DNA of 32,097 bases from Oscillospiraceae bacterium (GTDB lineage: Bacteria; Bacillota; Clostridia; Oscillospirales; Oscillospiraceae), in the NCBI GenBank assembly GCA_902799075.1, contig CADBYZ010000047.1, positions 1-32,097 on the forward strand, read 5' to 3'. Position 1 is the stretch's first letter. Each line of letters starts with the position of its first letter. The translations under genes were made by a program, and so were the position numbers. This document shows, piece after piece, positions 3,675 to 28,031 of the stretch. The notes below the pieces were generated by a model. The model made no database searches and had not been told where the DNA came from. It saw only the letters and a list, made by a program, of their open reading frames with translations.

Positions 3675-3852
3675 AGTGTGGAGTGTGGAGTGTGGAGTGT
3701 GGAGTTAAGGAGTCGCTGTGCGACGATAAAAACAGGCTCTGCCCGCAGAAGTGTTCATTGGTTGAAATCACGGAATGTTTCTAAAATATATTGTCCCCGA
3801 AGGGGACACCATAACTTCAAACTCCTAACTCCAAACTCCTAACTCCTAACTC
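3675..3852 (-). repeat. Heptamer-arm element A (non-coding core)
   Basis: The left arm has four AGTGTGG units followed by AGTTAAGGAGT; the right arm is a run of AACTCCT/AACTCCA units. The two arms are largely complementary. The core carries hairpins GTCGC-TGT-GCGAC (3712-3724) and GTCCCC-GAA-GGGGAC (3793-3807), and between them the conserved CGATAAAA..GGCTCTGCCC block. On the minus strand it begins AGTTATGGTGTCC, the same entry motif as elements B, C and E. It fills the gap between yggS and the membrane-protein gene at 3855. Confidence 0.8.
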
Positions 3853-3854
3853 TT

Positions 3855-4466
3855 TTACCGGATTTCTCCCTCCACGACGCGCAGCTCATAGAGCTTTTCC
3901 GGAAAGTCCGTGAGCTTTATGACCAGCATGCGCCGGTCCAGGGCGTCGGCGGTGACGGAGAGGATGTCGCCTTCGATCTCGCCCTCTGTGCCGTCGATGG
4001 TCAGACGGCCGGGGCCGGGGAGCGGGGACAGGTCCCCCTCCGTGAGGGCGGCGCAGATCAGGGAAAAGCCGTAAACCAGGCGCGCGGCATCCTCCGTCTC
4101 CGGGGGACTTGCGTCCAGGAGCTTCTCCAGCCCCGCCGGGGTGAGCCGCTCGGCGTCCTCGGGCTTTAATCCCTCCCAGCCGTCGCAGGCGGGATAGTAC
4201 AGGGCGCTCTCGGTGCCGGTGTCGGCGGCGCTCAGGCGCGCGCCGGGCTCTGCGTCCGGGAAGGCCCCGGCGGGCAGCCGCTCCTCCTGCCGGATGAGCA
4301 GGCCGCGAAAGCGCAGCGCCGCCGGGGCGGCGCTCGGCGCGGGCGCGGGCGGCGGTGGCTCTGGAGCGTCCATGCGCCGGTACAGCGCCGCGAGGCTCCA
4401 CGCGCAGGCGGCGGCAAAGAGCAGCGCCGCCAGCGCGTGATAAAAGGCCCGCTCAGTCCTCCCCAT
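3855..4466 (-). CDS. Single-pass membrane protein of unknown function next to hfq
   Basis: A 203-residue protein that I do not firmly recognise. It has a short basic N-terminus, one membrane segment (about residues 8-28, [19 protein letters not shown]), a Pro/Ala-rich linker ([14 protein letters not shown]) and an extracytoplasmic domain. The start at 4466 ([13 protein letters not shown]) places the membrane helix at the N-terminus and overlaps the end of hfq by 14 nt, which suggests translational coupling; the longer upstream frame is shadow coding inside hfq. The stretches [12 protein letters not shown] and [12 protein letters not shown] vaguely recall the HlyD-like membrane-anchored proteins that sit near sepF and yggS in clostridia, but no canonical biotinyl-lipoyl motif is visible. 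Function is left open. Confidence 0.75.
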
Positions 4467-4680
4467 CAAAGGGGATGGGCCGCGGCGGCACGACGGTGGA
4501 GATCGCGTGCTTGTAGATAAGCTGCTGCCGCCCGTCGGAGTCGAGCACCACCGTGAAGCCGTCAAAGCCGCGCACGATGCCGTGCAGCTGGAAACCGTTC
4601 ATCAGAAACATGGTGACCACGGCCCGATCCTTGCGCAGTTGGTTGAGGAATTGATCCTGGAGATTTTGCGTTTTCTGCAT
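4453..4680 (-). CDS. hfq: RNA chaperone Hfq
   Basis: A 75-residue Sm-fold protein that forms a hexameric ring and helps small RNAs pair with mRNAs. [24 protein letters not shown] gives the N-terminal helix with the proximal-face Gln residues and the Sm1 strand region. [23 protein letters not shown] ends in the hallmark Sm2 YKHA motif. The C-terminal tail is very short ([13 protein letters not shown]), as in Firmicutes Hfq. The start at 4680 follows AAGGAG; the upstream in-frame ATG would add 13 residues. It lies downstream of miaA, the same order as in many bacteria. A functional Hfq is relevant to the candidate small RNA at 16153-16230. Confidence 0.95.
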
Positions 4681-4754
4681 TTCAGCCACTCCTTTTTTGC
4701 GGAGCGGCATGTTCTTCACCGCTCCGTCATAAGTAATTCGTGTTTTGGCACGTA

Positions 4755-5702
4755 CTACTCATGATACCCGCGGCTTTGTAAAAACGCTGTCGAAATTTGG
4801 AGGGCGGCACCAAAATCGGGCTCAGCCTCCCAGAGGATGCGCAGGGCTCCCTCCCAGCGGCCGAACCAGGTGATCTGCCGCTTGGCATAGCGGCGGCTGC
4901 CCTGTCGGATGAGGTCGAGGGCCTTATCCTCCGCGAGCTCCCCTTTAAGAGCCAGCACCGCCTCCTTGTAGCCGATGGCCTGCATGGCGGTACAGTCGGC
5001 GGCGAGGCCCGAATCCAGGAGCCGCCGCACCTCGTCGAAGAGCCCGTCGGCGGCCATCCGCGTCACGCGCTGATCGATCCTTGCGTAGAGATCGGCACGG
5101 TTTTTGTAATTGAGCACGATCCGCGCCGCGTCATACCTCGGCGGGCGGCGGCGGGTCTCCTCGTCGTGTTCGGTGGCGGTCTTTCCGGTGAGGCGGTAGA
5201 TCTCGACGGCGCGCACGATGCGGCGCTTATCTCCCGCGCCGAGCTTTGAAGCCCGCTCGGGGTCAAAGGCCGCAAGCTTTTGCAGCATGGCCTCTCCGCC
5301 GAGGCGGTCATATTCCGCTTCCAGCTCGGTGCGCAGGGCCTTGTCCTCCTGATTGTCGGCAAAGTCCCGCCCGGAGATGAGCGAGTCGATGTAAAGTCCG
5401 GTCCCGCCCACCAGGATGGGCACACGCCCGCGCACTAAGATCTCGTCGCAGACGGCCCCTGCCTCGCCGACATAGCGGGCCACGGAGTAGGCTTCCGAGG
5501 GGTCGGCAACGTCGAGCATATGGTGTGGGGCCTCGGCCTGCTCCTCGGGTGTTGCCTTGGCGGTGCCGATGTCCATGCCGCGGTAGAGCTGCATGGAGTC
5601 GGCGGAGACGATCTCGCCGCCGTACATTTTGGCAAGCTCGATGCCGAGCCGTGTTTTTCCGGAGGCGGTAGGCCCCGCGACGACGACTATTTTATTGCGC
5701 AT
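4755..5702 (-). CDS. miaA: tRNA dimethylallyltransferase
   Basis: A 315-residue enzyme that transfers a dimethylallyl group to N6 of adenosine 37 in tRNAs reading UNN codons, providing i6A for MiaB (8298) to methylthiolate. The P-loop GPTASGKT is at residues 9-16. The substrate-binding segment [17 protein letters not shown] follows, then [15 protein letters not shown] and [11 protein letters not shown]. The swinging helical domain and the tRNA-contact region [17 protein letters not shown] are present, as are the C-terminal AIGYKE and [11 protein letters not shown] motifs. Length is normal. It is preceded by heptamer element B and followed by hfq after 74 nt. Confidence 0.96.
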
Positions 5703-5728
5703 AAGCGAAGCCTCACAGCCTTTCGTTC

Positions 5729-5886
5729 AGTGTGGAGTGTGGAGTTTGGAGTTTGGAGTTTGGAGTTTTTAAAGTGAAAAGTGAAGTTATGGCGTTCCCT
5801 AATGCAAGTTTCTGAGGGCGAAGCCTGTTATTGTTGCGGCAGAGCCGTACAATAACTCCACACTCCACACTCAAAACTCCACACTC
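5729..5886 (+). repeat. Heptamer-arm element B (non-coding core)
   Basis: The left arm is AGTGTGG/AGTTTGG units followed by two AGTGAAA-type units; the right arm is AACTCCACACTCCACACTC. In the plus orientation it enters with GAAGTTATGG and exits with ACAATAACTCC, the same borders as the IVP-coding elements C and G. The core contains the shared GAGGGCGAAGCC block and a CGGC-AGA-GCCG hairpin. It occupies nearly all of the mutL-miaA gap. The mixture of both heptamer types suggests a recombinant or composite copy. Confidence 0.78.
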
Positions 5887-5888
5887 AT

Positions 5889-7787
5889 TCAAACGATCCT
5901 CTTAAACAGTTTATCCAAATCCCGTCTGCCGAGCACCGCCGAGACGGGTCTGCCGTGGGGGCAGTATTTCACATCGCCGGACAGAACCGCCTGCACGATG
6001 CGGTCAAGCTCGGCGCGGTCCGTGATGTAGCCCGCCTTGATGGCGGCCTTGCAGGCCACCGTGTGCAGGATCTCGTCCCGGGCGCTCTTGGGGTCCGGGG
6101 CCTTGCCGCCGCGCAGCTTTTCAAAGATTTCCTCCACGGCCGCCCGCGCGTCCGAGGGGTTCATGTCCGCGGGCACGGTGCGCAGGATGTAGTCGTTCTC
6201 GCCGTATTGCTCGATCTCGAAGCCGAGCTCGGAAAGCAGCTCCCCGTTTTGCTCCAGAAGCTCCCGCTCCTCCCCGTCCAGACGCAGGGTCACGCCCTCG
6301 AGCAGGGTCTGGGCCATGACGCTGCGGTCCTGCTGTTTGAGGCGGTCAAAGATCATGCGCTCGTGGGCTGCGTGCTTGTCGATGAGCATGAGCTCGTCCC
6401 CGGTCTCGACCAGGATGTACAGGTGCAGTGCCTCGCCGATGAGTTTGTAATCCGGAAGCGTAGGTTTTTCAACACTTTGAACAGAGTTTTCCACAGTTTT
6501 ACCAGAATCAGCGGGCTCGTTCCGTGCGATTTTTGTCGATTCCTGCGGCTTGACAACGGGGGCCTGCGCCGGGGTCATATCCAGGCGCGTCTGGTAGGGC
6601 TGCTCATAGGCCTTGAGCGGCATGGCGGCCTCGACCGGCTTTGCGGGAGCCGAGGGCCGGACGCTGTAATTGGAGGCGCGAAAGTCCGCCGCGCTCATGG
6701 AGCGGTAGAAGTCCGGGCGCGGAGCGGGCCTTGCCGTCGGCGCCGCGTACACCGGCGCGGGGGCAGGCTTCGGCTTTTCCTCCTCGGCGGCGGTGCGGTC
6801 CTCCGTTGACAGCGCCGCGAGTGCCGCGTGGTAGACAAGATCGAAGACGCGCTTTTCCTGGGAAAATTTGACCTCGGTCTTGGCCGGGTGGACGTTCACG
6901 TCGACGGCGGCGTTGGAGAGCTTCAAGTACACCACGCACGCGGGATAGCGCCCGACGAGCAGCGTATTTTTGTACGCCTGCTCCACGGCGGTCTGCAAAA
7001 GGACCGAACGGATATAGCGCCCGTTGCAGTAGAAAAACTGCATGCCCCGGTTGCCGCGCCCGGCCGACGGTGAGGACACGAAGCCCGAGACGGACATGTC
7101 GCCGTCGCTGAGCTCGATGGGCAGAAAGTCCTTCGCCGTATCGCGGCCCAGAAGGGCGTACACGCAGGAGAGGGCCTTGCCGTCGCCGGGGGAGAAAAAC
7201 TCCTCCTTCCCGTCGCGCAGCAATCTGACGGAGACCTCGGGCCTGCCGAGGGCGCAGCGCAGCGCCGTCTGCACGCAGGCAGATGCCTCGGCCCGGTCGG
7301 ATTTCAGAAATTTGAGGCGGGCGGGCGTATTGAAAAACAGGGAGCGCACCTGCATGACGGTCCCCTCGGGGCAGCCGGTCTCGCCCATGTCCTGGATGTC
7401 CCCGGCGGAGAGCGTGACGCGGGTGCCGCTTGCGTCCCCATGCTGACGGGTGAGAAGCTCGACCTCGCTCACGGCGGAGATGGCGGCGAGGGCCTCGCCG
7501 CGAAAGCCCATGGTGCCGATGGCCTCGAGGCCCGTCTCGTCGCGGAGCTTGGAGGTCGCGTGGCGCATGAAGGCGATGCCGGCGTCCTCGGGGGCCATGC
7601 CCTTGCCGTCGTCCTGGACTCTTATATAGGTCGCCCCGCCGTCCCTGATTTCGACGGTGACGCTGTGAGCACCCGCGTCAAAGGCGTTTTCCATGAGCTC
7701 CTTGATGACGGAGGCGGGGCGCTCCACCACCTCGCCGGCGGCGATCATATCCGCCACATGCGGGGAGAGTATGTTGATTTCGGGCAT
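5889..7787 (-). CDS. mutL: DNA mismatch repair protein MutL (endonuclease type)
   Basis: A 632-residue MutL that couples MutS mismatch recognition to downstream excision and nicks the daughter strand. The N-terminal GHKL ATPase motifs are present: the ELMENAFDAGA motif I (about residues 30-40), DDGKGM, and GFRGEALAAI. The transducer domain ends near NVHPAKTEVKF. A low-complexity Pro/Ala linker (about 335-430) precedes the dimerisation/endonuclease domain, with DKHAAHER (about 470) in place of the usual DQHA start, ACKAAIK and the zinc-binding CPHGRP (about 609), which together indicate the nicking-competent class. The ATG follows AGAGG. mutS lies 2.3 kb away on the opposite strand. The stop codon abuts element B. 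Confidence 0.96.
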   Translation of the reverse strand: MPEINILSPHVADMIAAGEVVERPASVIKELMENAFDAGAHSVTVEIRDGGATYIRVQDDGKGMAPEDAGIAFMRHATSKLRDETGLEAIGTMGFRGEALAAISAVSEVELLTRQHGDASGTRVTLSAGDIQDMGETGCPEGTVMQVRSLFFNTPARLKFLKSDRAEASACVQTALRCALGRPEVSVRLLRDGKEEFFSPGDGKALSCVYALLGRDTAKDFLPIELSDGDMSVSGFVSSPSAGRGNRGMQFFYCNGRYIRSVLLQTAVEQAYKNTLLVGRYPACVVYLKLSNAAVDVNVHPAKTEVKFSQEKRVFDLVYHAALAALSTEDRTAAEEEKPKPAPAPVYAAPTARPAPRPDFYRSMSAADFRASNYSVRPSAPAKPVEAAMPLKAYEQPYQTRLDMTPAQAPVVKPQESTKIARNEPADSGKTVENSVQSVEKPTLPDYKLIGEALHLYILVETGDELMLIDKHAAHERMIFDRLKQQDRSVMAQTLLEGVTLRLDGEERELLEQNGELLSELGFEIEQYGENDYILRTVPADMNPSDARAAVEEIFEKLRGGKAPDPKSARDEILHTVACKAAIKAGYITDRAELDRIVQAVLSGDVKYCPHGRPVSAVLGRRDLDKLFKRIV

Positions 7788-7801
7788 ATGTAAAACCTCT
7801 T

Positions 7802-8179
7802 TCAGAGTTTGGAGTGTGGAGTTTGGAGTGTGGAGTTTATTGTCTTGGTTGAAGAAGACAGCATTTTTCTCAGTTCCTCGCAGTCTTTATGCAGAGAAAG
7901 TAACTGTTTTTCCGTAAGATAGTCGGTTTTTCTCATAAGCTCCAGCCAATATAAAGTCTCTGAACACTCTTTCAATGAAATGTACAGTTTTGACAGAAAA
8001 TCCTTTCGACTGATTGCAGTTGCAGCCTCAGCCAGGTTTGCTCCAATACTTGTGCCGCTTCTGAGAATCTGTTTGGAAAGAGTATACTCCTTCTTTTCAT
8101 CACAAAGATATTGGTACAATCTCACAATGCGAACGGCAAAACACATGCTTTTTTCTCTGACTGTGGCGGTATTATCCAT
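7802..8179 (-). CDS. Four-helix-bundle protein (23S rRNA intervening sequence protein family)
   Basis: A 125-residue member of the IVP/S23 family, small four-helix-bundle proteins first known from ORFs inside 23S rRNA intervening sequences and structurally related to the Avd protein of diversity-generating retroelements. The family core is clear: FAVRIVRLYQYL, LSKQILRSGTSIGANLAEA, ISRKDFLSKLYISLKECSETLYWLEL, and a final helix CEELRKMLSSSTKT. No catalytic motif is expected; the molecular role is unknown. The gene is the cargo of heptamer element C. Its start ATG (8179) lies inside the conserved GGAGTTATGG entry motif and the upstream arm supplies GGAG as Shine-Dalgarno. The last residues (NSTLQTPHSKL) are translated from the distal heptamer arm. 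A truncated relative is at 27739. Its lower GC content differs from the flanking genes. Confidence 0.88.
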   Translation of the reverse strand: MDNTATVREKSMCFAVRIVRLYQYLCDEKKEYTLSKQILRSGTSIGANLAEAATAISRKDFLSKLYISLKECSETLYWLELMRKTDYLTEKQLLSLHKDCEELRKMLSSSTKTINSTLQTPHSKL

Positions 8180-8211
8180 AACTCCAAACTCCAAACTCCA
8201 AACTCCACACT
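7804..8211 (-). repeat. Heptamer-arm element C carrying an IVP gene
   Basis: Complementary arrays of AGTGTGG/AGTTTGG units (7804-7841) and AACTCCA units (about 8179-8211) flank the four-helix-bundle gene. On the minus strand the element enters with GGAGTTATGG and exits with GACAATAAACTCC, matching the non-coding relative B and the truncated copy G. It is inserted between mutL and the promoter of miaB. It is the only copy in the window with an apparently full-length cargo ORF. Confidence 0.82.
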
Positions 8212-8228
8212 ATTATACATGTTTTCAG

Positions 8229-8258
8229 TTGAAACTTCCATAGTATTTATGCTAAAAT
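8229..8258 (+). promoter_or_regulatory. Probable sigma-70-type promoter of miaB
   Basis: TTGAAA (8229-8234) and TAAAAT (8253-8258) are separated by 18 nt, and a TGC triplet directly upstream gives an extended -10. It lies just outside element C and about 40 nt upstream of the miaB start, which has an AAGGAG ribosome-binding site. Confidence 0.6.
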
Positions 8259-8297
8259 ATAAGGACTCAGCAATGGAAGATTAAGGAGAATACCCCC

Positions 8298-9689
8298 ATG
8301 CCGATTGAGAGAAAAGTCATTGATATAGAAAAAATCGAAGAACAGCGGGCGATCTGCGCGCAGATTTTTGAGCGCGTCACCGCGGACGGGCAGCGGCCCC
8401 TTGCCATGGTGGACACCTACGGCTGCCAGCAGAACGAGGCCGACAGCGAGAAGATCCGCGGGTATCTGGCCGAAATGGGCTACGGCTTGGACGTGATCGT
8501 CGTCAACACCTGCGCCGTGCGCGAGCACGCGGAGATGCGCGTTCTGGGAAACGTGGGCGCGCTCAACCACTCCAAGAAGGCGCGGCCCGGACAGATCATC
8601 GCCGTCTGCGGCTGCATGGTGCAGCAGAAACATATGGCGGAGAAGATCAAAATGTCCTACCCCGTGGTGGACCTGGTCTTCGGTCCGCACGAGCTCTGGC
8701 GCTTTCCCGAGCTTTTAAATCAGGTGATGGAAAAGCATAAACGCGTTTTCGCCATCGACAAGGCCGAATCCGTGGCCGAGGGCATCCCGCTCCGGCGCGA
8801 CGGGAAGGTCAAGGCGTGGCTTTCCATCATGTACGGCTGCAACAACTTCTGCACCTACTGCATCGTCCCCTATGTGCGGGGACGTGAGCGCTCGCGCAGG
8901 CCGGAGGATGTACTCGCCGAGGCGCGGCAGCTTGTCGCGGAGGGCTATAAGGACATCACCCTTCTCGGTCAGAATGTCAACTCCTACGGCAAGGACCTCG
9001 ACTGCGGGGTGGACTTTGCCGATCTCATCCGGCAGATCAACGACATCCCCGGCGACTTTCTCATCCGCTTCATGACGAGCCATCCGCGGGACGCAACCGA
9101 AAAGCTCTTCAAAACCATGGCGGAGTGCGAAAAATGCGCCCACCATATCCACCTGCCCGTCCAGTCCGGCAGCGACCGGATCCTAAAGCGCATGAACCGC
9201 CACTACGACCGGGCAAAGTATCTCGACGAAATTGCCACGGCCCGGCGCTATATGCCCGACCTCGTCATCACCACCGACATCATTGTGGGCTTCCCCGACG
9301 AGACGGAGGAGGACTTTGCCGACACTCTGAGCCTCTGCGAAGAGGTGCGCTATGACGCCATGTTCACCTTTATCTACTCCAAGCGCGTCGGCACCCCGGC
9401 GGCAACGATGCCCGACCCGTACACGCGGGCCGACAAGCAGGTGCACTTTGACCAGCTCATGGAGCTGAGTAACCGCATCTCCGGCGAAAAGCACAAGGAG
9501 TACGAGGGCAAAACCGTGCGCGTGCTGGTGGACGGTGAGACCGGCAAGGAGGAATATAACCTCTCCAGCCGCACAAACGGCGGCAGGCTTGTGCATCTGC
9601 ATGGCGACAAGAGCCTTATCGGGCAGTTCATCGACGTGAAGATCACGGCGAGCAATACCTGGGCCCTGTACGGAAGTTTGGAGTTTTGA
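8298..9689 (+). CDS. miaB: tRNA-2-methylthio-N6-dimethylallyladenosine synthase
   Basis: A 463-residue radical-SAM methylthiotransferase that converts i6A37 (made by MiaA) to ms2i6A37. The N-terminal UPF0004 domain has three conserved cysteines for the auxiliary 4Fe-4S cluster (C43 in YGCQQNEAD, C72 in NTCAVRE, C106 in CGCMVQ). The radical-SAM cluster motif CNNFCTYC occupies residues 181-188, followed by IVPYVRGRERSR. HLPVQSGSDRILKRMNRHYDR and IVGFPDETEEDF are typical. A C-terminal TRAM domain (about 395-460) binds RNA. The last residues, SLEF and the TGA stop, are read from the heptamer array of element D (AGTTTGGAGTTTTGA), so the array defines the protein end. The start follows AAGGAG. Confidence 0.96.
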   Translation: MPIERKVIDIEKIEEQRAICAQIFERVTADGQRPLAMVDTYGCQQNEADSEKIRGYLAEMGYGLDVIVVNTCAVREHAEMRVLGNVGALNHSKKARPGQIIAVCGCMVQQKHMAEKIKMSYPVVDLVFGPHELWRFPELLNQVMEKHKRVFAIDKAESVAEGIPLRRDGKVKAWLSIMYGCNNFCTYCIVPYVRGRERSRRPEDVLAEARQLVAEGYKDITLLGQNVNSYGKDLDCGVDFADLIRQINDIPGDFLIRFMTSHPRDATEKLFKTMAECEKCAHHIHLPVQSGSDRILKRMNRHYDRAKYLDEIATARRYMPDLVITTDIIVGFPDETEEDFADTLSLCEEVRYDAMFTFIYSKRVGTPAATMPDPYTRADKQVHFDQLMELSNRISGEKHKEYEGKTVRVLVDGETGKEEYNLSSRTNGGRLVHLHGDKSLIGQFIDVKITASNTWALYGSLEF

Positions 9690-9709
9690 GTGTGGAGTGT
9701 GGAGTTATA
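9675..9709 (+). repeat. Heptamer half-element D
   Basis: Only one arm is seen: AGTTTGG, AGTTTTG, AGTGTGG, AGTGTGG, AGTTAT. No complementary arm follows; a different palindromic element (9729-9844) occupies the expected core position. The array overlaps the last codons and stop of miaB. It may be a remnant whose core and right arm were lost or replaced. Confidence 0.65.
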
Positions 9710-9728
9710 GCCTTTAACCCCTGCCTTG

Positions 9729-9844
9729 TAGGGGCCGACGCCCCCGGCGGCCCGTGCAGTACGGCGGACGTCAGCCACATTCGCCCGGGCGCATGCGCAG
9801 AACCGCACCAAATCCCGCCGGGCCGCCGAGGGCGTCGGCCCCTA
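9729..9844. repeat. Palindromic element with 26-nt terminal inverted repeats
   Basis: The left end TAGGGGCCGACGCCCCCGGC and the following GGCCCG (9729-9754) are the inverse complement of 9819-9844 with one mismatch. The 64-nt interior is GC-rich and shows no ORF. Such short elements with GTAGGGGC-type ends are, from general knowledge, common MITE-like intergenic repeats in Oscillospirales. No transposase is encoded. Confidence 0.72.
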
Positions 9845-9886
9845 CGGGGTAAATAAAGATTTCGTCATATTTTGATCATTATCATT

Positions 9887-10111
9887 ATGAAAAAAACTAT
9901 CGTTATCCTGTCCGTATTGTTTGCCGCCTGTCTCGTCCTGCTGGCGGCGGCGCTGTATACGCCCGCGGCGGAGACCTTTTCCTGTGACCGCTGCCACCGG
10001 ACGGTGACGGAAAAGCCGATTCATATAGCCGAGCAAACCGTCGATATGACGATCTGTTCGGACTGCTATCAAGATTACCTCAGAGGGATGTGGAAAATAT
10101 GCCAGAGCTGA
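9887..10111 (+). CDS. Small secreted or membrane-anchored zinc-ribbon-like protein, coupled to mutS
   Basis: A 74-residue protein of unknown function. An N-terminal signal peptide or membrane anchor (MKKTIVILSVLFAACLVLLA, about residues 1-23) precedes a short domain with two CxxC pairs: C33-D-R-C36 and C57-S-D-C60. This spacing fits a zinc ribbon or treble-clef knuckle facing outside the cytoplasm. The start at 9887 is the first Met that gives a compact signal peptide; an in-frame start at 9872 adds only Met and four Ile. No good Shine-Dalgarno is seen. The ORF overlaps the start of mutS by 13 nt, so translation may be coupled. It could be a spurious ORF, but the lysine-initiated signal peptide and paired cysteines argue for a real gene. 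Confidence 0.6.
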   Translation: MKKTIVILSVLFAACLVLLAAALYTPAAETFSCDRCHRTVTEKPIHIAEQTVDMTICSDCYQDYLRGMWKICQS

Positions 10112-13385: not shown

Positions 13386-13391
13386 AAGATC

Positions 13392-13566
13392 AGTTTGGAG
13401 TGTGGAGTTTGAAGTGTGGAGTGAAGGAGTGCCTTCGGCACGATTAAAATTTGGCTTCGCCCTCAATTGTCCCGGCCGGAAGCAGCCAGCCTTCATTTCC
13501 GCAAATTATAATCCGTCCGCGAAGCGGACACCATAACTCCACACTCCTAACTCCTAACTCCACACT
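13392..13566 (-). repeat. Heptamer-arm element E (non-coding core)
   Basis: Left arm AGTTTGG, AGTGTGG, AGTTTGA, AGTGTGG, AGTGAAGG; right arm AACTCCACACTCCTAACTCC and a further CACACT. The core has hairpins GTGCC-TTC-GGCAC (13429-13441) and GTCCGC-GAA-GCGGAC (13515-13529), at the same places as in element A but with different base pairs. It shares the GGCTTCGCCCTCA block with B (inverted) and CCGGAAGCAGCC with F. It lies between the CPBP protease and the trmO-like gene. Confidence 0.8.
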
Positions 13567-13598
13567 TTTTCATGTATACTGCTGAAAAGGAGCCGTCC

Positions 13599-16673: not shown

Positions 16674-16740
16674 GGTAATCTCTCCCTTATGTTTGATAAT
16701 TTGATGGCACCCCGCAGGGGTTTCGCGTAAGCGAAATAAA

Positions 16741-16878
16741 TACAATCTGTTTTTGGCGGAGCTTTGCCCCGTCAGGTGAGCAAGGCGAACCCTCGCGCCG
16801 ACCAAAATGCGGCGTCTCCCGCAAGCCGCATTGCGATAAGCGCGAGCAGCTCAATTGCGAACCGTGTTCGCAATTGAA
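16741..16878 (-). repeat. Structured stop-codon-adjacent element S1
   Basis: It begins directly after the stop codon of the upstream binding-protein gene. On the minus strand: an 11-bp hairpin TCAATTGCGAA-CACGG-TTCGCAATTGA (16851-16877); a CTCGCGC/GCGCGAG stem (16840-16846 with 16792-16798) enclosing CTTATCGCA, an ATGCGGC/GCCGCAT hairpin (16807-16831) and TTTGGTCGG; then a GGCAAAGCTCC segment. S2 at 25274 has the same layout, with compensatory changes in the first and inner hairpins. Two further small hairpins (TTTCGC/GCGAAA and ACCCC/GGGGT) lie between it and cdd. Confidence 0.75.
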
Positions 16879-18447: not shown

Positions 18448-18456
18448 GGCCTTTCC

Positions 18457-19245: not shown

Positions 19246-19269
19246 GGTTTATCCTCGGTTTGTTGTTTG

Positions 19270-20613
19270 TTATGTCTTTGCCCCTGCGGCGGCCTTGCGC
19301 CTGACGGCGAAGGCGGGGAGCCTGAACAGCAGGTACAGGCCCACCGCGCCGAGCATGTAGCGAAACGGCATCAGCAGGGCCGCGTAGCGTTCTATGGCGT
19401 AGCTGCAGGCGATGAGATAGAGATTGACCCAGTACACCGCGCACAGCAGCAGGACGAAGCCGCGCTTTTGCTTCATCAGCAGCGACAGTGCCGCGCCCAC
19501 CGCGCACAGCACAAAATTCACCTTGCTCAGGAAATTGGTCAGCGGCAGGATGATCGGCTGATCCGGCCCCCAGTAATACACCCAGGTCAACATGCACATG
19601 GGCTTTTCGATCAGGTAGGCGCGCAGGAAGCCGACAGGGTCGCGGGAAAACCAGGTGCGCATGCGGTAGTCGGCCCGGAGCCTGTCGGTCATGGCGGAGA
19701 CATACTGCATACAGGAATCGTTGAGGTAATCGCCGTTTTCGTCGAAATAGCGGGCATAACGCTGTCGGGCGATTGCGTCCACATTGGTCTCGTAGTCCAG
19801 CTCCTCATCTGCGGGCGCCGTGCTGCCCTGATAGCTGCCCTTGAGCGTGGGGTTGCCCATGCCGTAGGACACCGGGATGAAGGCATCGAAGATCCTGTAA
19901 TTGCGGATCGTCCAGGGCACGAAGAACACAAGGCACAGCGCGCAGAAAATCAGCGCGCCCTTTGCGAACTTCTTCACGCCGCACTTTCTGCCCGTCAGGA
20001 CCCATACCAGCGCAAACAGCGGCATTACCAGGATATTGGCCCGGAAAAAGAGTGCCAGCAGGAAGCTCAGGGTATAGCGCAGCAGGCAGGGGAGCTCCGG
20101 CTCGGAGCGCAGGCGCAGCATATAGTAGAAATTGGCAAGGAAGAACAAGGTATAGGGCGTTTCGGTGCTGATGATGGTGTCCATCCAGGCGCGGTTCGGC
20201 ATGAGCAGCGCGGCCGCGGCGAACAGGGCCCATCTGCCTGGCAGGTACAGGCGCGCCGCGCGGTAGAGATACAGGGCCGTGAACGCGCCCATCAGGCTCC
20301 ACAGCACCTTGACCGTGCCGAGATAGAGCGTGCCCTCCCCGCACAGGCGGGATATAAGGCCGGTGACGATGGGCATGCCCGGCATGATCAGCGCCGTCGG
20401 GGCATCCTCCCAGACGGAGATGATCCCGGTACGCGCAAAGCAGATGCCGCCCCGGATATAGGCCACATCGTCGCCGCTCGATACCTCGTCCACGCCGATA
20501 TACAGAATCAGGGCAAGCCGCTCCAGAAACAGCAGCGCGATCAGCAGCCAGAGCAGCCGCTCGCTGTCAAGCGGGTTTTTGCGTATTCCTTCTGCTTTCG
20601 ATGTCACGCTCAT
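19270..20613 (-). CDS. GT39/ArnT-like membrane glycosyltransferase
   Basis: A 447-residue polytopic membrane protein with about ten to twelve hydrophobic segments, resembling the dolichyl-phosphate-mannose-protein mannosyltransferase/ArnT (GT-C) superfamily. After the first membrane helix comes an acidic loop, GVDEVSSGDDVAYIRGG (D48-D49), where GT-C enzymes hold their catalytic aspartate. MPGMPIVTGL and LMPNRAWMDTIISTETPYTLFFLANF match the pattern seen in this superfamily. A large extracytoplasmic loop (about residues 250-320) precedes the last helices. Donor (polyprenyl-phosphate sugar) and acceptor are unknown. AGGAGG lies 9 nt upstream of the ATG. It follows secA after 58 nt and is probably in the same transcript. 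Confidence 0.75.
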   Translation of the reverse strand: MSVTSKAEGIRKNPLDSERLLWLLIALLFLERLALILYIGVDEVSSGDDVAYIRGGICFARTGIISVWEDAPTALIMPGMPIVTGLISRLCGEGTLYLGTVKVLWSLMGAFTALYLYRAARLYLPGRWALFAAAALLMPNRAWMDTIISTETPYTLFFLANFYYMLRLRSEPELPCLLRYTLSFLLALFFRANILVMPLFALVWVLTGRKCGVKKFAKGALIFCALCLVFFVPWTIRNYRIFDAFIPVSYGMGNPTLKGSYQGSTAPADEELDYETNVDAIARQRYARYFDENGDYLNDSCMQYVSAMTDRLRADYRMRTWFSRDPVGFLRAYLIEKPMCMLTWVYYWGPDQPIILPLTNFLSKVNFVLCAVGAALSLLMKQKRGFVLLLCAVYWVNLYLIACSYAIERYAALLMPFRYMLGAVGLYLLFRLPAFAVRRKAAAGAKT

Positions 20614-20671
20614 GGGCCGGCCTCCTGGCTTGGATACTGTTCCGAAGCAGCTTGTGTATTGCTCCTTATCC

Positions 20672-23449: not shown

Positions 23450-23491
23450 GTATGTCTTAACCTTTCTCAAAGAGTTTCGTATTCCTTATAA

Positions 23492-23650
23492 AGTGGAGAG
23501 TGAAAAGTGGAAAGTGTAAATATAGTGTCCGCTTCACGGACGAATGATAAATAAACGGCTGCTTCCGGTGAATCGTTCTGAGGACGGAGCCGGATATCAT
23601 CACGCCCCGGGCATCCCTTCTCTTCACTTTTCACTCTGCACTTTTCACTT
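23492..23650 (+). repeat. Heptamer-arm element F (AGTGAAA-type arms, non-coding core)
   Basis: The left arm is AGTGGAG, AGTGAAA, AGTGGAA, AGTGTAA; the right arm is TTCACTTTTCACTCTGCACTTTTCACTT, complementary in type. The core contains GTCCGC-TTC-ACGGAC (23527-23541), CGGCTGCTTCCGG and GAGGACGGAGCC, all of which match element E in reverse orientation. The core is therefore shared with the AGTGTGG-type elements while the arm sequence is different. It lies in the secA upstream region. Confidence 0.78.
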
Positions 23651-23683
23651 TTTATTTTTCGCACTTATTCATTTTGTACTATA

Positions 23684-23697
23684 TCACAAGAATGTGA
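23684..23697. promoter_or_regulatory. Small dyad between secA and the DUF1846 gene
   Basis: TCACA-AGAA-TGTGA is a perfect 5-bp dyad in the AT-rich stretch between the two divergent genes. A TATAGT sequence adjoins it on the minus strand but no good -35 is present. It may be an operator or a chance palindrome. Confidence 0.3.
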
Positions 23698-23722
23698 ATA
23701 AAAAAAGTCTAAATCTGTCATC

Positions 23723-23751
23723 TTGCCCTTGCGCGCTGACTGTGGTAAAAT
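23723..23751 (+). promoter_or_regulatory. Probable promoter of the DUF1846 gene
   Basis: TTGCCC (23723-23728) and TAAAAT (23746-23751) are separated by 17 nt, with an extended -10 TGG immediately before TAAAAT. It lies about 38 nt upstream of the start codon, which has a GAGTGAGG ribosome-binding site. Confidence 0.55.
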
Positions 23752-23788
23752 AGCGGACGTTAATTGAAAATTTTTGGGAGTGAGGACC

Positions 23789-25273
23789 ATGAACCGCATC
23801 GGCTTTGACAACGAAAAATATTTGAAGCTCCAGTCCCAGAAGATCCGCGACCGCATCAGCAAGTTCGGCGGCAAGCTGTACCTGGAATTCGGCGGCAAGC
23901 TCTTTGACGACTACCACGCCGCCCGCGTGCTGCCGGGCTTCGAGCCGGACAGCAAGGTGCGCATGCTCCTGGAGATGAAGGACGACGCCGAGATCGTCAT
24001 CGCCATCTCCGCCGACGACATCGAGCGCTCCAAGCGCAGAGGCGACCTCGGCATCACCTACGAGGACGACACCCTCCGCCTCATCGACGCCTTCCGCGGC
24101 ATCGGGCTCTACATCGGCTCCGTGGTCATCACCCACTACCGCGGCCAGGCCATCGCCGACGCCTTCCGCAAGCGCCTGGAGGCCCTGGGCGTGCGCACGT
24201 ATCTGCATTACATCATCCCCGACTATCCCGCAAACGTGCCCCTCATCGTCTCCGATGAGGGCTTCGGGAAGAACGACTACATCGAGACCGAGCGCAGCCT
24301 CATCGTCGTGACCGCCCCCGGCCCCGGCAGCGGCAAGATGGCCACCTGCCTAAGCCAGCTCTACCACGAGCACAAGCGCGGCATCGACGCGGGCTATGCC
24401 AAGTTTGAGACCTTCCCGGTCTGGAACCTGCCGCTCAAGCACCCGGTGAACCTGGCCTACGAGGCCGCGACCGCGGACCTCGACGACGTGAACATGATCG
24501 ACCCCTACCACCTTGAGGCCTACGGCGAGACCGCCGTCAACTATAACCGCGACGTGGAGATCTACCCCGTGCTCCAGGCCATTTTTAAATCCATCTACGG
24601 CGAGTGCCCCTACAAGAGCCCCACGGACATGGGCGTGAACATGGTGGGCTTCTGCATCTCGGACGACGAGGTGTGCAGAGAAGCCTCGAAGCAGGAGATC
24701 ATCCGCCGCTGGTACGCCGCCGCCGTCGCCGCCCGCAAGGGTCTCGGCGAGCCGACCGAGATGCGGCAGATCGAACTCATCATGAACTCCCTCGACATCT
24801 CCTCCGCCGACCGCCCGGTGGTCAAGGCGGCACTGGACAAGGCCGAAGCCACCGACGGCCCCGCGGTCGCCATCGAATTAAACGACGGGCGCATCGTCAC
24901 CGGCAAGACCACGTCGCTGCTGGGCGCGTCCTCCGCGGCCCTCATCAACGCGCTGAAGGCCCTCGCGGGCATCGACAAGAAGCTGCCCCTCATCGCCCCC
25001 GGCGTCATCAAGCCCATCCAGCACCTCAAGGTGGAGCACCTGGGCAACCACAACCCCCGCCTGCACACGGACGAGCTTTTGATCGCGCTGACCATCTGCG
25101 CGGTCACAAACCCCATGGCGGACCTCGCCATCGACCAGCTGGCCAAGCTCAAGGGCGCGGAGGCGCACTCCACCGTCATCCTCTCCCATGTGGACGAGGA
25201 CCTCTTCAAAAAGCTCGGCGTCAACATCAGCTTTGAGCCCAGGTATCAGGCGAAGAAGCTGTATCACAAGTGA
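23789..25273 (+). CDS. DUF1846 (UPF0371) family protein
   Basis: A 494-residue protein of the DUF1846 family, conserved cytoplasmic proteins in Firmicutes and Actinobacteria with no established reaction. Family hallmarks are nearly continuous: IGFDNEKYLKLQSQKI, FGGKLYLEFGGKLFDDYHA, VLPGFEPDSK, the glycine-rich TAPGPGSGKMATCLSQ loop near residue 180 (P-loop-like but not a classical Walker A), GYAKFETFPVWNLPLKHPVN and LAYEAATADLDDVNMIDP. The start at 23789 (MNRIGFDN) has GAGTGAGG at good spacing; a TTG 15 nt upstream is unlikely. It is followed, directly after its TGA, by structured element S2 and then xpt. The neighbour hints at a nucleotide link, but this is only inference. Confidence 0.9.
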   Translation: MNRIGFDNEKYLKLQSQKIRDRISKFGGKLYLEFGGKLFDDYHAARVLPGFEPDSKVRMLLEMKDDAEIVIAISADDIERSKRRGDLGITYEDDTLRLIDAFRGIGLYIGSVVITHYRGQAIADAFRKRLEALGVRTYLHYIIPDYPANVPLIVSDEGFGKNDYIETERSLIVVTAPGPGSGKMATCLSQLYHEHKRGIDAGYAKFETFPVWNLPLKHPVNLAYEAATADLDDVNMIDPYHLEAYGETAVNYNRDVEIYPVLQAIFKSIYGECPYKSPTDMGVNMVGFCISDDEVCREASKQEIIRRWYAAAVAARKGLGEPTEMRQIELIMNSLDISSADRPVVKAALDKAEATDGPAVAIELNDGRIVTGKTTSLLGASSAALINALKALAGIDKKLPLIAPGVIKPIQHLKVEHLGNHNPRLHTDELLIALTICAVTNPMADLAIDQLAKLKGAEAHSTVILSHVDEDLFKKLGVNISFEPRYQAKKLYHK

Positions 25274-25415
25274 ATTCGATTGCAAACACGGTTTGCAATC
25301 GAGATACTCGCGCTTATCGCACACGGCGGGCCGTAACACGCCGTGTTTGGTCGGCGCGAGGCCTCACTTAGTTCGGCTCAGGGTGTTTTTGGGGCGGCAA
25401 AGCTGCCCCAAAAAC
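25274..25415 (+). repeat. Structured stop-codon-adjacent element S2
   Basis: It starts at the base after the TGA of the DUF1846 gene. Hairpin 1 is TCGATTGCAAA-CACGG-TTTGCAATCGA (25276-25302). A CTCGCGC/GCGCGAG stem (25307-25313 with 25354-25360) encloses CTTATCGCA, a CACGGCG/CGCCGTG hairpin (25322-25345) and TTTGGTCGG. A strong TTTTTGGGGC/GCCCCAAAAA hairpin with a GGCAAAGCT loop follows (about 25385-25414). S1 has the same order of parts. It makes up most of the xpt leader; it does not resemble a purine riboswitch. Confidence 0.78.
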
Positions 25416-25454
25416 GATTTGAAATCTATACTTCATGTTTACGGAGGAACAACA

Positions 25455-26024
25455 ATGGAGCTTCTGGAGCAGCGCATCCTTTCTGACGGGCAGCTTCTGC
25501 CGGGCGGCATCCTGAAGGTCGACAATTTTCTCAACCATCAGATGGACCCCATGCTTTTGCAGGCCATGGCAAAGGAGTGGCACCGCCTGTTCGAGCATGA
25601 CGGCGTCAACAAGATCCTCACCATCGAGGCTTCCGGCATCGCCCTGGCGATCCTGACGGGGCTGGAGTTTCGGTGCCCGGTGGTCTTCGCCAAAAAGAGC
25701 AAATCCAGCAACATCTCCGATAATCTCTACCGGACCGAAATCCCCTCCTTCACCCACGGCAACACCAACACCGTCATCGTGTCGAAGGACTATCTGCTGC
25801 CCGGTGACCGCGTGCTGATGATCGATGATTTTCTCGCCACGGGCGCTGCACTCGTAGGGCTTAAAGACCTGGTGGAGCAGGCGGGCGCGACGCTCGTCGG
25901 CGCGGGCTGCGCGATCGAGAAGCGCTTTCAGGGCGGCGGCGACGAGCTGCGGGCCGAGGGCGTGCGGGTCGAGTCGCTTGCCCGGATCGTACGGATGGAC
26001 GACAACGGCATCGAGTTTGGCTGA
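25455..26024 (+). CDS. xpt: Xanthine phosphoribosyltransferase
   Basis: A 189-residue type I phosphoribosyltransferase that converts xanthine and PRPP to XMP in purine salvage. It matches the Xpt family along its whole length: MELLEQRILSDGQLLPGGILKVDNFLNHQ, ILTIEASGIALAILTGLEF, VVFAKKSKSSNISDNLYRTEI, FTHGNTNTVIVSKDYLL, then the PRPP-binding loop RVLMIDDFLATGAAL (about residues 115-130) and the C-terminal GAGCAIEKRFQGGGDELR. The ATG has ACGGAGGAAC upstream. Its leader contains element S2 and not the guanine riboswitch that often precedes xpt; that riboswitch is found instead in front of the next operon. Confidence 0.95.
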   Translation: MELLEQRILSDGQLLPGGILKVDNFLNHQMDPMLLQAMAKEWHRLFEHDGVNKILTIEASGIALAILTGLEFRCPVVFAKKSKSSNISDNLYRTEIPSFTHGNTNTVIVSKDYLLPGDRVLMIDDFLATGAALVGLKDLVEQAGATLVGAGCAIEKRFQGGGDELRAEGVRVESLARIVRMDDNGIEFG

Positions 26025-26054
26025 AAAACGCTTCAAAACCTTGAACCTCTTGCG

Positions 26055-26076
26055 CCGCAAGGCTTTGCGGGTTTTT
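26055..26076 (+). terminator. Intrinsic terminator of xpt
   Basis: CCGCAA-GGCT-TTGCGG followed by GTTTTT, about 30 nt after the xpt stop codon. Confidence 0.75.
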
Positions 26077-26150
26077 CCAGAAAAGGGTAATTTGTGCATC
26101 TTCGCCAAATTTTGCTTTGCAATTCTGGCCAGTTCTTACAAGAAATACAG

Positions 26151-26179
26151 TTGACTTTTGCCGAAAAGCCTGTTATTTT
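26151..26179 (+). promoter_or_regulatory. Promoter of the BMP nucleoside transporter operon
   Basis: TTGACT (26151-26156) and TATTTT (26174-26179) with a 17-nt spacer. The predicted start lies about 25-30 nt ahead of the guanine riboswitch aptamer, as expected for a riboswitch leader. Confidence 0.7.
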
Positions 26180-26213
26180 ATAGACATCCTGCGCGTGACA
26201 ATTGAATACCGTC

Positions 26214-26280
26214 TCGATATATAGCAAATGATATGGATTTGAAGTTTCTACCCGGACGCCGTAAATGACCGGACTATCGA
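26214..26280 (+). promoter_or_regulatory. Guanine-class purine riboswitch aptamer
   Basis: All purine-riboswitch parts are readable. P1 is TCGATA/TATCGA (26214-26219 and 26275-26280). P2 with its loop is CAAATGATATGGATTTGAAG, J2/3 is TTTCTAC, and P3 is CCGG..CCGG around the conserved L3 GCCGTAAATG. The specificity base in J3/1 (ACTAT) is C, as in guanine/hypoxanthine-sensing members; adenine sensors have T there. J2/3 is the normal purine form, which argues against the 2'-deoxyguanosine variants. A terminator follows at 26329-26366, so ligand binding should switch off the downstream BMP-ABC transporter genes. Confidence 0.92.
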
Positions 26281-26328
26281 AGTATCCATCAGGGGCGAGC
26301 GATCGATCCCTTTTGGTATATATGCATT

Positions 26329-26366
26329 GGTACCGGGCGCCGATCGTCCGCGCCAGTGCCTTTTTT
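26329..26366 (+). terminator. Riboswitch-controlled intrinsic terminator
   Basis: GGTACCGGGCGC pairs with GCGCCAGTGCC around a CGATCGTCC loop, with one wobble and a mismatch, and TTTTTT follows. It lies about 50 nt after the aptamer and about 95 nt before the first gene. The CGATCG in the loop could alternatively pair with CGATCG near 26300, a possible antiterminator contact. Confidence 0.75.
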
Positions 26367-26460
26367 ATCCCCGCACCGACGCTGCCATGAAAGGATATGT
26401 GTGCTCTTTTCATGGCGGCGCCGCACCCCAAATCATTTTATTATTACAAGGAGAACGAAC

Positions 26461-27645
26461 ATGAAAAAGATCTTTTCTCTGCTCCTCGCTCTGACCATGA
26501 TCTTTGCTCTCGCCGCTGTCTCCGCCCCCGCCGCCTCTGCCGAGACGACCGTCAAGGCGGGCTTCATTTTCCTGCACGACGAGAATTCCACCTATGACCT
26601 CAACTTCATCAACGCGGCCAAGGAAGCCTGCGAGAAGCTGGGCGTCGAGTACCTGTTCAAGACCGGCATCCCCGAGGGTCAGGAATGCGCTGACGCCGCC
26701 GAGGAGCTCATCGACGAAGGCTGCAACTTCATCTTTGCCGACTCCTTCGGCCACGAGCCCTTCCTGCTCCAGGTCGCCAAGGAATACCCCGAGGTCCAGT
26801 TCTGCCACGCCACCGGCACCCAGGCCCACACCGCGGGTCTTGACAACTACCACAACGGCTTTGCCTCCATCTACGAAGGCCGCTTCCTCGGCGGTGTCGC
26901 CGCGGGCCTGAAGCTCAACGAGATGATCGAGGCCGGCACCATCACCCCCGAGCAGGCCAAGGTCGGCTATGTCGGCGCTTTCCCCTATGCCGAAGTGAAG
27001 TCCGGCTACACCTCCTTCTTCCTCGGCGTCCGCTACATCTGCCCCTCCGCCACCATGGAGGTCACCTTCACCAACTCCTGGTATGACCCCACCCTTGAGA
27101 AGGAAGGCGCCACCAAGCTCATCAACAACGGCTGCGTCCTGATCTCCGAGCATGCCGACTCCATGGGCGCTCCCACCGAGTGCGAGGCCAACAATGTCCC
27201 CTTCGTGTTCTACAACGGCTCCGCCGCTGACGCCTGCCCCAACACCTTCATCGTCGCCTCCCGCATCGACTGGGCTCCCTATATGGAGCACGCCATGACC
27301 TGCACCGCCAACGGCGAGGCCATTGAGGCCGACTGGACCGGCACCCTGGCCACCGGCTCCGTCAAGATGACCGAAATCAACGAGGCCGCTGCCGCTGCCG
27401 GCACCGCCGAGAAGCTTCAGGAAGTTGAGGCCAAGCTTGCCTCCGGCGAGCTCAAGGTCTTCGATACCGCCACCTGGACCGTCGGCGGTCAGACCCTCAC
27501 CGAGTACCTGGCCGACGTCGACGACATGGGCGACTTCCAGCCCGAGACCAACGTCATTGCCGACGGTTACTTCCACGAGTCCGAGTACCGCTCCGCGCCG
27601 TACTTCGACATCGACATCGACGGCATCACCAACATCGACGCGTAA
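26461..27645 (+). CDS. BMP-family nucleoside-binding protein of an ABC transporter
   Basis: A 394-residue periplasmic-binding-type protein of the BMP (basic membrane protein)/PnrA family, which binds purine nucleosides for uptake. The signal peptide MKKIFSLLLALTMIFALAAV continues to a type-I-like ASA|E cleavage site near residue 27; no lipobox Cys is present, unlike most Gram-positive binding proteins. BMP features are VKAGFIFLHDENSTYDLNFINAA, CNFIFADSFGHEPFLLQVAKEYPEVQFCHATG, VGYVGAFPYAEVKSGYTSFFLGVR and VTFTNSWYDPTLEKEGATKLI. AAGGAG precedes the ATG. It is first in an operon controlled by a guanine riboswitch, which supports guanine- or hypoxanthine-nucleoside uptake. A hairpin after it may keep its expression higher than that of the other subunits. 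Confidence 0.93.
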   Translation: MKKIFSLLLALTMIFALAAVSAPAASAETTVKAGFIFLHDENSTYDLNFINAAKEACEKLGVEYLFKTGIPEGQECADAAEELIDEGCNFIFADSFGHEPFLLQVAKEYPEVQFCHATGTQAHTAGLDNYHNGFASIYEGRFLGGVAAGLKLNEMIEAGTITPEQAKVGYVGAFPYAEVKSGYTSFFLGVRYICPSATMEVTFTNSWYDPTLEKEGATKLINNGCVLISEHADSMGAPTECEANNVPFVFYNGSAADACPNTFIVASRIDWAPYMEHAMTCTANGEAIEADWTGTLATGSVKMTEINEAAAAAGTAEKLQEVEAKLASGELKVFDTATWTVGGQTLTEYLADVDDMGDFQPETNVIADGYFHESEYRSAPYFDIDIDGITNIDA

Positions 27646-27668
27646 GTACATCCTATCCTCTCATATGG

Positions 27669-27694
27669 GAACTCCCGGCCTCGGTCGGGAGTTC
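27669..27694 (+). terminator. Hairpin between binding protein and ATPase genes
   Basis: GAACTCCCG/CGGGAGTTC stem with an 8-nt loop, not followed by a T-run. Likely an mRNA-stabilising or partial-termination hairpin that separates binding-protein from ATPase/permease expression, as is common in ABC operons. Confidence 0.6.
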
Positions 27695-27708
27695 TCAACA
27701 CTTTATAA

Positions 27709-28031
27709 AGTGAAAAGTGGAAAGTGAAAAGTGAAGATATGGGTTATAGTGCAGCACACGAACAAAGCTTTCGGTTTGCCGTTCGGATTGTTCGATTATA
27801 TCAGTATCTGGAAGATAAGAACGAATATGTCTTGTCTAAACAGATTCTGAGAAGCGGCACAAGCATCGGCGCAAATCTTGCAGAGGCAAAGGCCGCAATC
27901 AGCCGCAAGGACTTTCAGGCAAAGGTCTACATTGCACTGAAAGAATGTGCAGAAACCTCTCCGCCACCACAAGAACCCTGAGCAGAAAAGAGACAATATA
28001 ACTTCACTTTCCACTTTCCACTTTTCACTTT
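27709..28031 (+). repeat. Heptamer-arm element G with truncated IVP gene
   Basis: The left arm is AGTGAAA, AGTGGAA, AGTGAAA, AGTGAAG; the right arm is CTTCACTTTCCACTTTCCACTTTTCACTTT. The arms are complementary. It enters with GAAGATATGG and exits with GACAATATAACTTC, matching the borders of elements B and C. The cargo is a shortened relative of the IVP gene of element C. It is inserted inside the transporter operon, between the binding-protein and ATPase genes, and ends 5 nt before the ATPase ribosome-binding site. Confidence 0.82.
27739..27981 (+). pseudogene. Truncated four-helix-bundle (IVP family) gene
   Basis: The 80-residue frame MGYSAAHEQSFRFAVRIVRL.. matches the IVP at 7802 through helices 1-3 (LSKQILRSGTSIGANLAEA, ISRKDFQAKVYIALKECAET). 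After that it runs into SPPPQEP and a stop, where a relative would continue with LYWLEL and the fourth helix. The last helix is therefore missing, most simply by an internal deletion. A GTG start 15 nt upstream is also in frame but lies in the repeat arm. Roughly two thirds of the shared residues are identical to the first copy. A truncated but still functional product cannot be excluded. Confidence 0.78.

Follow-up and report, generated by a model that had tools for sequence, protein, structure and literature searches.

What are the seven intergenic elements, E1 to E7, that punctuate contig CADBYZ010000047.1 of an Oscillospiraceae bacterium (assembly GCA_902799075.1), and what placed them there? 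Throughout its 32,097 nucleotides, the whole of which is called the window here, tandem units of seven nucleotides recur between genes, in most cases as two arrays that face each other around a core. The explanation that we prefer, and hold with slightly better than even confidence, is that they are small elements of one family, mobile now or in the past, for which the tandem heptamers act as an address at either end, and that a protein encoded by some of them binds these ends. This protein is a member of the IVP family, named 23S rRNA-intervening sequence protein or four helix bundle protein in Pfam and NCBIfam.

Inspected base by base, the window sequence contains period-7 arrays at all seven places, and the arrays face each other in six of them, in agreement with the original prediction made for this DNA; E4 consists of a left array only. 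The heptamers have the form AGT followed by four letters and come in two flavours, a GG-type (AGTGTGG, AGTTTGG, AGTTAGG) found in E1, E3, E4, E5 and the outer arms of E2, and an AA-type (AGTGAAA, AGTGAAG, AGTGGAA) found in E6, E7 and the inside of E2. The facing arms are imperfectly complementary. IVP cores had been predicted in two elements and are present in both, intact in E3 and truncated in E7; of the four related cores predicted elsewhere, a common two-hairpin core was recovered in E1, E5 and E6, and E2 retains only its second half (Table 1). All elements sit between protein-coding genes and not inside a 23S rRNA gene. An Rfam search found no rRNA match in the window and no curated family for the elements; its only match was a purine riboswitch outside them.

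Table 1 Features of the window discussed in the text
Feature	Position	Strand	Description
E1	3675-3851		Two-hairpin element; AGTGTGG/AGTTAGG-type arms 3675-3709 and 3814-3851
E1 hairpins	3712-3724 and 3793-3807		R1 core-model match 3705-3814, minus strand
E2	5729-5886		Hybrid; GG-type outer arms 5729-5766 and 5855-5886; second half of core
E2 inner units	5773-5786		Two AGTGAAA-type units on the left side, inside the AGTGTGG-type outer arms
E3	7806-8211	minus	IVP-bearing element; arms 7806-7836 and 8181-8211
IVP gene of E3	7802-8179	minus	125 aa, four helix bundle, PF05635/TIGR02436
E4	9675-9709	plus	Half element, left array only, at the miaB 3′ end
E5	13392-13566		Two-hairpin element; GG-type arms 13392-13426 and 13536-13566
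E5 core	13422-13536	minus	Best R1 core-model match
E6	23492-23650		Two-hairpin element; AGTGAAA-type arms
E6 core	23520-23621	plus	R1 core-model match
Purine riboswitch aptamer	26195-26296	plus	Rfam, 63.8 bits
E7	27709-28031	plus	AGTGAAA-type arms enclosing a truncated IVP gene
Truncated IVP gene of E7	27739-27981	plus	80 aa, PF05635 positions 7-72 of 106

The IVP gene of E3 starts with an ATG directly inside one arm, and its 3′ end runs into the distal arm. The protein matched PF05635 with E = 1.4e-31 on a 130-aa open reading frame (ORF) and 109.3 bits (curated cut-off 33.8) and TIGR02436 with 117.5 bits (cut-off 24), and the truncated protein of E7 matched PF05635 with E = 1.2e-19 and 70.9 bits (curated cut-off 33.8). 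These are the two IVP loci found in the genome of the window, designated G000, a 2.41-Mb metagenome-assembled genome (MAG) that is 76% complete. The solved structures 2rld and 2gsc, both of IVP relatives, contain five chains apiece, and a Xanthomonas protein of the family was described as a toroidal pentamer (PMC4990558; here and below, sources given by PMC number are cited from extracts of their text). The same extracts state that the function of IVP/S23p proteins is not known.

Evidence on mobility came from a close relative, G027, whose MutL is 96% identical and whose DNA blocks near the window are 91-96% identical. Element flanks were located in G027 in all 35 cases tried. Fifty-two element groups were compared and 48 were assessable; the G027 slot was without an array in 24 of these and held one in the other 24. 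Six sites were near-empty, with no more than 31 bases left (E1, E5, L106:18417, L107:9859, L108:8027 and L112:16622), the residue being 7 bases at E1 and 31 at E5. At the E2 and E7 sites the element is absent and other sequence is present, the E3 site holds another repeat instead, E4 is also absent, and E6 is orthologous. Eight elements are clearly common to both genomes (identity of at least 0.86 over the slot, core included where present); all are of the AA-type/AGTGAAA-type, with changed arm copy number. A few further elements have one arm in common, including two GG-type arrays (L096:9160 and L096:18587), which are the two possible common copies of the AGTGTGG type, to which the intact IVP of E3 belongs. 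The reverse comparison, limited to stretches picked around G000 elements, found an array at the G000 slot for 22 of 28 assessable G027 array groups and none for six. Array sites thus differ between relatives, and this presence and absence, the many copies, and one core family with different arms support the earlier proposal of a mobile or once-mobile element in IVP-bearing and MITE-like versions (MITE, miniature inverted-repeat transposable element). Of the two outcomes that had been named in advance as refuting that proposal, neither was observed. The near-empty sites showed no clean target duplications. As a separate observation, the half array of E4 supplies the last codons and the stop of the miaB ORF (8298-9689), and the C-terminal end differs in G027.

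The same slots bear on a simpler explanation, in which the arrays are passive repeats that change by slippage and homologous exchange and are transferred horizontally with flanking genes, IVP being carried along with the arrays, tolerating them or making use of them, without dedicated transposition. In its favour, array copy number varies between orthologous elements (L113:9037, L112:11229), unrelated repeats likewise swap in these intergenic slots, and G000 has GG-type arms at ten sites whose slot in G027 is occupied by an AA-type array; at L099:6064 this type switch has identical flanking bases on both sides. Type switches at the same slot were not significantly in excess of those at other indel slots (6/24 versus 4/34, p = 0.29), nor were they in a recount that took in three block-internal switches and a GG-GG site by hand and dropped a double entry (9/27, p = 0.06). 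Passive change leaves unexplained, however, the identical facing heptamers around one gene family in many phyla, the common two-hairpin core at many unlinked places, and near-empty sites such as E1, and we regard it as unlikely, though a serious contender.

Arrays are abundant beyond the window. Three consecutive AGTKDRR units gave 108 + 128 overlapping matches (236) in the 2.41 Mb of G000, against 10 + 6 (16) for the reversed pattern, a control that is poor for the relative G036, whose heptamer AGTGAAG is near-identical backwards. A 389-kb set, made up of the window and 357 kb of G000, contained 37 facing pairs and 18 unpaired arrays; these densities are not genome-wide because the 357 kb were picked for containing arrays. 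Adjacent arms no more than 420 nt apart were convergent in 37 cases, in the same direction in three and divergent in none, and the commonest arm length in paired elements was four units (17/37 on each side). Arrays standing without facing partners or cores are therefore not the rule, about two thirds of the array groups having a partner. Like MITEs, the 37 facing pairs of this selected set are short, multicopy, non-coding elements with terminal inverted repeats, and they share a common core. The arm types at the element ends are common to two-hairpin and IVP elements; IVP is no known transposase.

The complementary arms had been read as a designed stem, and here the original prediction was not supported. 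The comparison took in pairs of one type in which each arm had three or more units (15/19 GG and 8/14 AA pairs of G000, 7/17 AA pairs of G027). Similarity between the arms of an element was not above that of permuted pairs, and for the GG-type it was below it when the arms were anchored at their outer ends (a value as low arose in a fraction of 0.0014 of the permutations, and of 0.17 with anchoring at the inner ends). A perfect stem was accordingly rejected as the selected feature. The arm stem is not tuned to its own partner, and because arms are no better partners within than between elements, repeated binding sites fit better than a selected hairpin.

These results also bear on the possibility that the elements act as RNA, either as transcribed hairpins cut by RNase III or as IVP-bound post-transcriptional regulators, kept for regulation, the intervening sequence (IVS) of 23S rRNA being the same thing inside an rRNA gene. 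RNA folds are strong (z of -7.5 for E1 and -5.5 for E5 against dinucleotide shuffles), the core helices covary, the Coxiella IVS, with heptamers upstream of its S23p ORF, is excised by RNase III (PMC4990558), and translational regulation was proposed by MacGregor for TAACTGA repeats (PMC4679880). Yet the elements lie between tandem genes (E1, E2, E5) and divergent genes (E3, E6) alike, half of the assessable slots are without an array in G027, and the arms are unmatched to each other, which is unexpected if the stem is the functional part. We consider a role at the RNA level improbable. A terminator role was rejected as a general answer, since E3 and E6 stand between divergent genes.

The non-coding cores form one family. 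Among 55 paired elements of G000 and G027, 40 have cores of 40-150 bases, and 29 of these scored above 45 against two hairpin reference strings, 45 being the top score in the wrong orientation. Twenty aligned cores share a layout in which an arm-side hairpin (GTCCGC TTC GCGGAC) is followed, in longer cores, by a small middle hairpin and then by a hairpin beside the other arm (GCGGC GAA GCCGC). Pairing was found in 92.5% of cells, as opposed to 78.4% when shuffled and 33-48% when slid; 35 cells showed double changes (12.4 shuffled), and the covariation score was 0.381 (0.166 shuffled). Selection of the alignment (A3) with hairpin-bearing references, together with the trimming of some of its rows, favours the pairing figures but not the number of double changes. 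A covariance model, R1, matched in 16 of 60 genomes (G000 and its relatives) when up to 62 candidates were scored per genome, with 32 matches in G000, 29 in G027, 28 in G030, 27 in G006, 26 in G022 and 22 in G021; its matches in E1, E5 and E6 are not independent, R1 having been built from an alignment that contains them. At 19 core loci from 11 of the 14 matched genomes other than G000 and G027, period-7 arrays (score of at least 10) stood on both sides in seven, on one side in nine and on neither in three. The heptamers beside the cores vary by genome (AGAGTGG in G022, AGTGAAG in G036, ATAATGA in G035), and the core is therefore retained while the heptamer changes. Seven genomes have both cores and armed IVP genes. 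Among arms picked by hand from each of these, not all arms per genome, those beside cores were more like those beside the genome's own IVP genes than chance pairings were (permutation p = 0.0001), G006 failing clearly and G021 showing only a weak likeness.

The association of arrays with IVP genes extends well beyond the genus. Across the 60 genomes, an IVP was found in 16 of the 19 with AGTKDRR arrays and in 16 of the 41 without (p = 0.002). A sample of 51 IVP loci from these genomes, G000 included, covers part of their IVP matches and is the fairer one in that its loci were not chosen by their arms. Arrays stood on both sides in 17, on one side in five and on neither in 29; the heptamers of the two-armed loci are genome-specific (TAGTTCG and GAATTCG, for example). 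A species-level scan with one genome per species, queried with an alignment of six arm-bearing IVPs and L076 (left array only), returned at least 582 related loci, the best 80 of which had arrays on both sides in 48 cases, on one side in 22 and on neither in ten. Since the query consisted almost entirely of arm-bearing IVPs and these are the best-scoring loci, 48/80 overstates the general rate. In the same 80 loci, arrays were present in 118 of 160 IVP flanks, compared to 13 of 378 windows farther out, the latter taken only from loci of at least 3290 bases. The titles of the two-armed loci, which are MAG titles and may include misbinned contigs, name Clostridia, Bacteroidales, Saprospiraceae, Alphaproteobacteria, Microcystis, Kiritimatiellae, Lentisphaeria, Verrucomicrobia, Ignavibacteriae and others. 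The element had been thought local to Oscillospirales; instead, the same design surrounds IVP genes in many phyla.

Under a looser threshold, 145 IVPs divided into 81 with arrays on both sides, 31 with one and 33 with none. The armless IVPs cluster in the tree (FastTree, 119 columns, modest support; L034 and L093 left out), with 28 of the 33 in one 33-row clade and 8 changes against 29.9 in shuffles, and arm loss therefore looks like a lineage event. The IVPs of this mostly armless clade, which includes the sole IVP of G027, may have another role. On plasmids, mostly cyanobacterial, 15 of 25 matches of a first search were inspected (both arms 10, one 4, none 1), as were 8 of 30 matches of a second search with another IVP type (both 5, one 1, none 2). 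Phage records with an IVP numbered two out of 50,697; one locus was inspected and was without arrays. Three cyanobacterial plasmid loci (L250, L251 and L296) have an IVP with one- or two-sided arrays beside cas1, cas2, cas4 or cas6.

The two arms of a locus mostly carry the same word. With the right arm read in reverse, the consensus heptamers of the facing arms were identical in 54 of 81 two-armed loci and agreed in at least six of seven letters in 70, whereas random pairings between loci gave identical heptamers in 53 of 5000 and reading on the same strand in only two of the 81. The motif A[AG]T[GT] (ARTK) occurred on one strand in 66 of the 81 loci, compared to a mean of 28 and a maximum of 38 with shuffled letters, ARTK having been derived from first examples that are themselves within the 81. 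Most heptamers thus have the form ARTKNNN; the remaining three positions vary freely, and the word differs between genomes.

From this anatomy we infer how such elements might work. The autonomous form would be an IVP gene between a heptamer array and a facing array of the same heptamers, and the non-autonomous form, its partner, a two-hairpin core between two arrays. IVP, a putative end-binding pentamer, would most probably bind the matching heptamers of both arms in the manner of an iteron-binding protein, and would bring the ends of an element together, also in trans for elements that have only a core; cutting and joining of the strands would fall to enzymes of the host or to one that has so far escaped recognition. 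The identity of the heptamer would serve as a lineage-specific address. As the address differs between lineages, elements with the same address would spread together.

A catalytic partner was sought in two directions. In the first, the elements would be MITEs or REPINs (doublets of repetitive extragenic palindromes) moved by a Y1 transposase, of the REP-associated tyrosine transposase (RAYT) or IS200-like kind, that recognises the core hairpins. Y1 families occur in 31 of the 60 genomes, some near the curated cut-off in core-carrying genomes including G000, and a heptamer array lies within the same 3 kb in two of 13 Y1 stretches (L284 and L288; degenerate in L287), each stretch being judged by its best period-7 segment. 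The single array segment of L284 and L288 cannot enclose the Y1 gene, however, the other stretches have none, and the array-rich G019, G036 and G027 are without a Y1 match. What the Y1 stretches do contain, in 12 of 13 (without a background count), is a TAGGGGC-like repeat, which adjoins several Y1 genes (for example in L283, L286 and L289). In REPIN/RAYT systems the Y1 gene is flanked by the same repeats; here none of the 13 Y1 genes was seen between arrays, and we rejected RAYT/Y1 as the driver, movement by such an enzyme being very unlikely. A second family of intergenic palindromes (GTAGGGGC...GCCCCTAC) adjoins E4 at 9720-9860 of the window. TAGGGGC-like repeats are found in 12 of the 13 Y1 stretches of the genus, and this palindrome family therefore looks like a RAYT/REPIN one.

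In the second direction, IVP would act like Avd of the diversity-generating retroelements, with a reverse transcriptase supplied in trans. PF05635 resembles Avd (PMC10053308), and an RVT_1 match is present in the array-rich G015, G027, G036 and G055. None was found in the likewise array-rich G000 (76% complete), G006, G019 and G030 (92% complete), an absence that is weakened by the incompleteness of these MAGs. A retroelement is the least probable of the explanations considered.

Several observations weigh against mobile elements with IVP-bound ends. We know of no nuclease, recombinase or transposase activity of IVP. No movement was observed, and the six near-empty sites show no consistent target duplication, their flanks being too diverged. 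The 24 of 48 slots that hold an array in both genomes, partly of different types, are not simply explained by insertion alone, and two slots scored as without an array (L104:7908 and L099:10835) retain degenerate heptamer traces in G027. Arrays and IVP genes do not always occur together: no IVP was found in G005, G022 and G035, which hold both arrays and cores, or in G018, which has 26 ARTK-array matches (2 in the control); the one IVP of the array-rich G027 (L082) is armless, as is the majority (29/51) of the IVP loci sampled in G000 and its relatives. The arrays run in the same direction, with six or seven of seven letters in agreement, at 6 of the 81 two-armed loci (for example L238), and plasmid IVPs of the second type use heptamers mostly outside ARTK.

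The separate parts of this design have counterparts elsewhere. Short tandemly repeated repetitive sequences (STRRs) are heptanucleotide repeats of cyanobacteria, and on plasmids of Nostoc, IVP genes lie between or beside arrays of words such as CAATTCG and GTCGGAA, a likeness to STRRs as these are generally described. The 23S rRNA IVSs of Coxiella, Leptospira and others also have an IVP-family ORF as their sole gene, complementary ends and heptamers; E3 (intact) and E7 (truncated) likewise have an IVP/S23p ORF between complementary ends. In Coxiella, GACAGAT heptamers stand upstream of the S23p ORF in a number that varies between strains (PMC4990558). The IVSs lie inside 23S rRNA and are excised as RNA, in contrast to the present elements, which are multicopy, occupy the gaps between protein genes, use heptamers specific to a lineage and have non-coding partners. 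Rehm et al. (2015) described intergenic tandem heptamers, mostly of four units, that are G-rich in Nostoc and form convergent repeats in Xanthomonas (GGGAATC), where two genomes contained 70 and 75 such pairs (PMC4692102). These repeats are like ours in being intergenic, tandem and convergent, but are treated in the extracts as quadruplex repeats; a term search found 'S23', 'four helix bundle' and 'intervening' nowhere in the main text of that source.

The P6b stem of the trnL intron of Nostoc and Calothrix is also built of heptamers, of one of two complementary classes (Class I/II) with repeated one-way class shifts; it differs in lying inside a group I intron, and the extracts name no IVP gene (PMC4476775). 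TAACTGA arrays of Beggiatoaceae and cyanobacteria are many, intergenic and patchy and have apparently spread horizontally with no evident mechanism; unlike the present arrays, they are almost all direct repeats and were proposed by MacGregor (2015) as translational regulators (PMC4679880), and 'S23' and 'four helix bundle' were not found by a term search of the main text of that source.

The statement that no element of this design had been described therefore needs qualification, pieces of it being in print. No paper joining heptamer arms with IVP genes outside rRNA was found in the full-text literature, in a search whose scope took in few subscription papers, and because of this we count the element class as new, its mobility being a proposal. 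It is possible, and we suggest it tentatively, that IVP elements with heptamer arms form a mobile-element class of their own across bacteria. In this class a 7-nt word, repeated in tandem at both ends, would be read as an address by a non-catalytic four-helix-bundle protein, and the word could change throughout a lineage and even at one and the same locus; the 23S rRNA IVSs, the STRRs, the Nostoc trnL stems and the heptamers of Xanthomonas and Beggiatoa would then all be arms or remnants of such elements. The heptamer repeats of cyanobacteria, Xanthomonas and Beggiatoaceae were reported without a source, which this design could provide. If IVP is the protein belonging to these repeats, two open questions would become one testable system, whose parts are a single small protein and a word of seven letters open to synthesis. 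There would then be a kind of mobile element without a recognisable transposase, as well as natural pairs of protein and DNA word from many lineages, whose specificity could be read by comparison. G055, with nine IVP matches and several heptamer flavours, is suited to a test that matches words to proteins.

Two further observations concern single loci. In Monoglobus, the type I restriction genes hsdS and hsdR are separated by an IVP gene that is broken and carries short arrays of heptamers (L237, 701-1024). In the window itself, a 1.4-kb stretch at 19256-20665 and a 172-base intergenic stretch at 25270-25441 are absent from G027.

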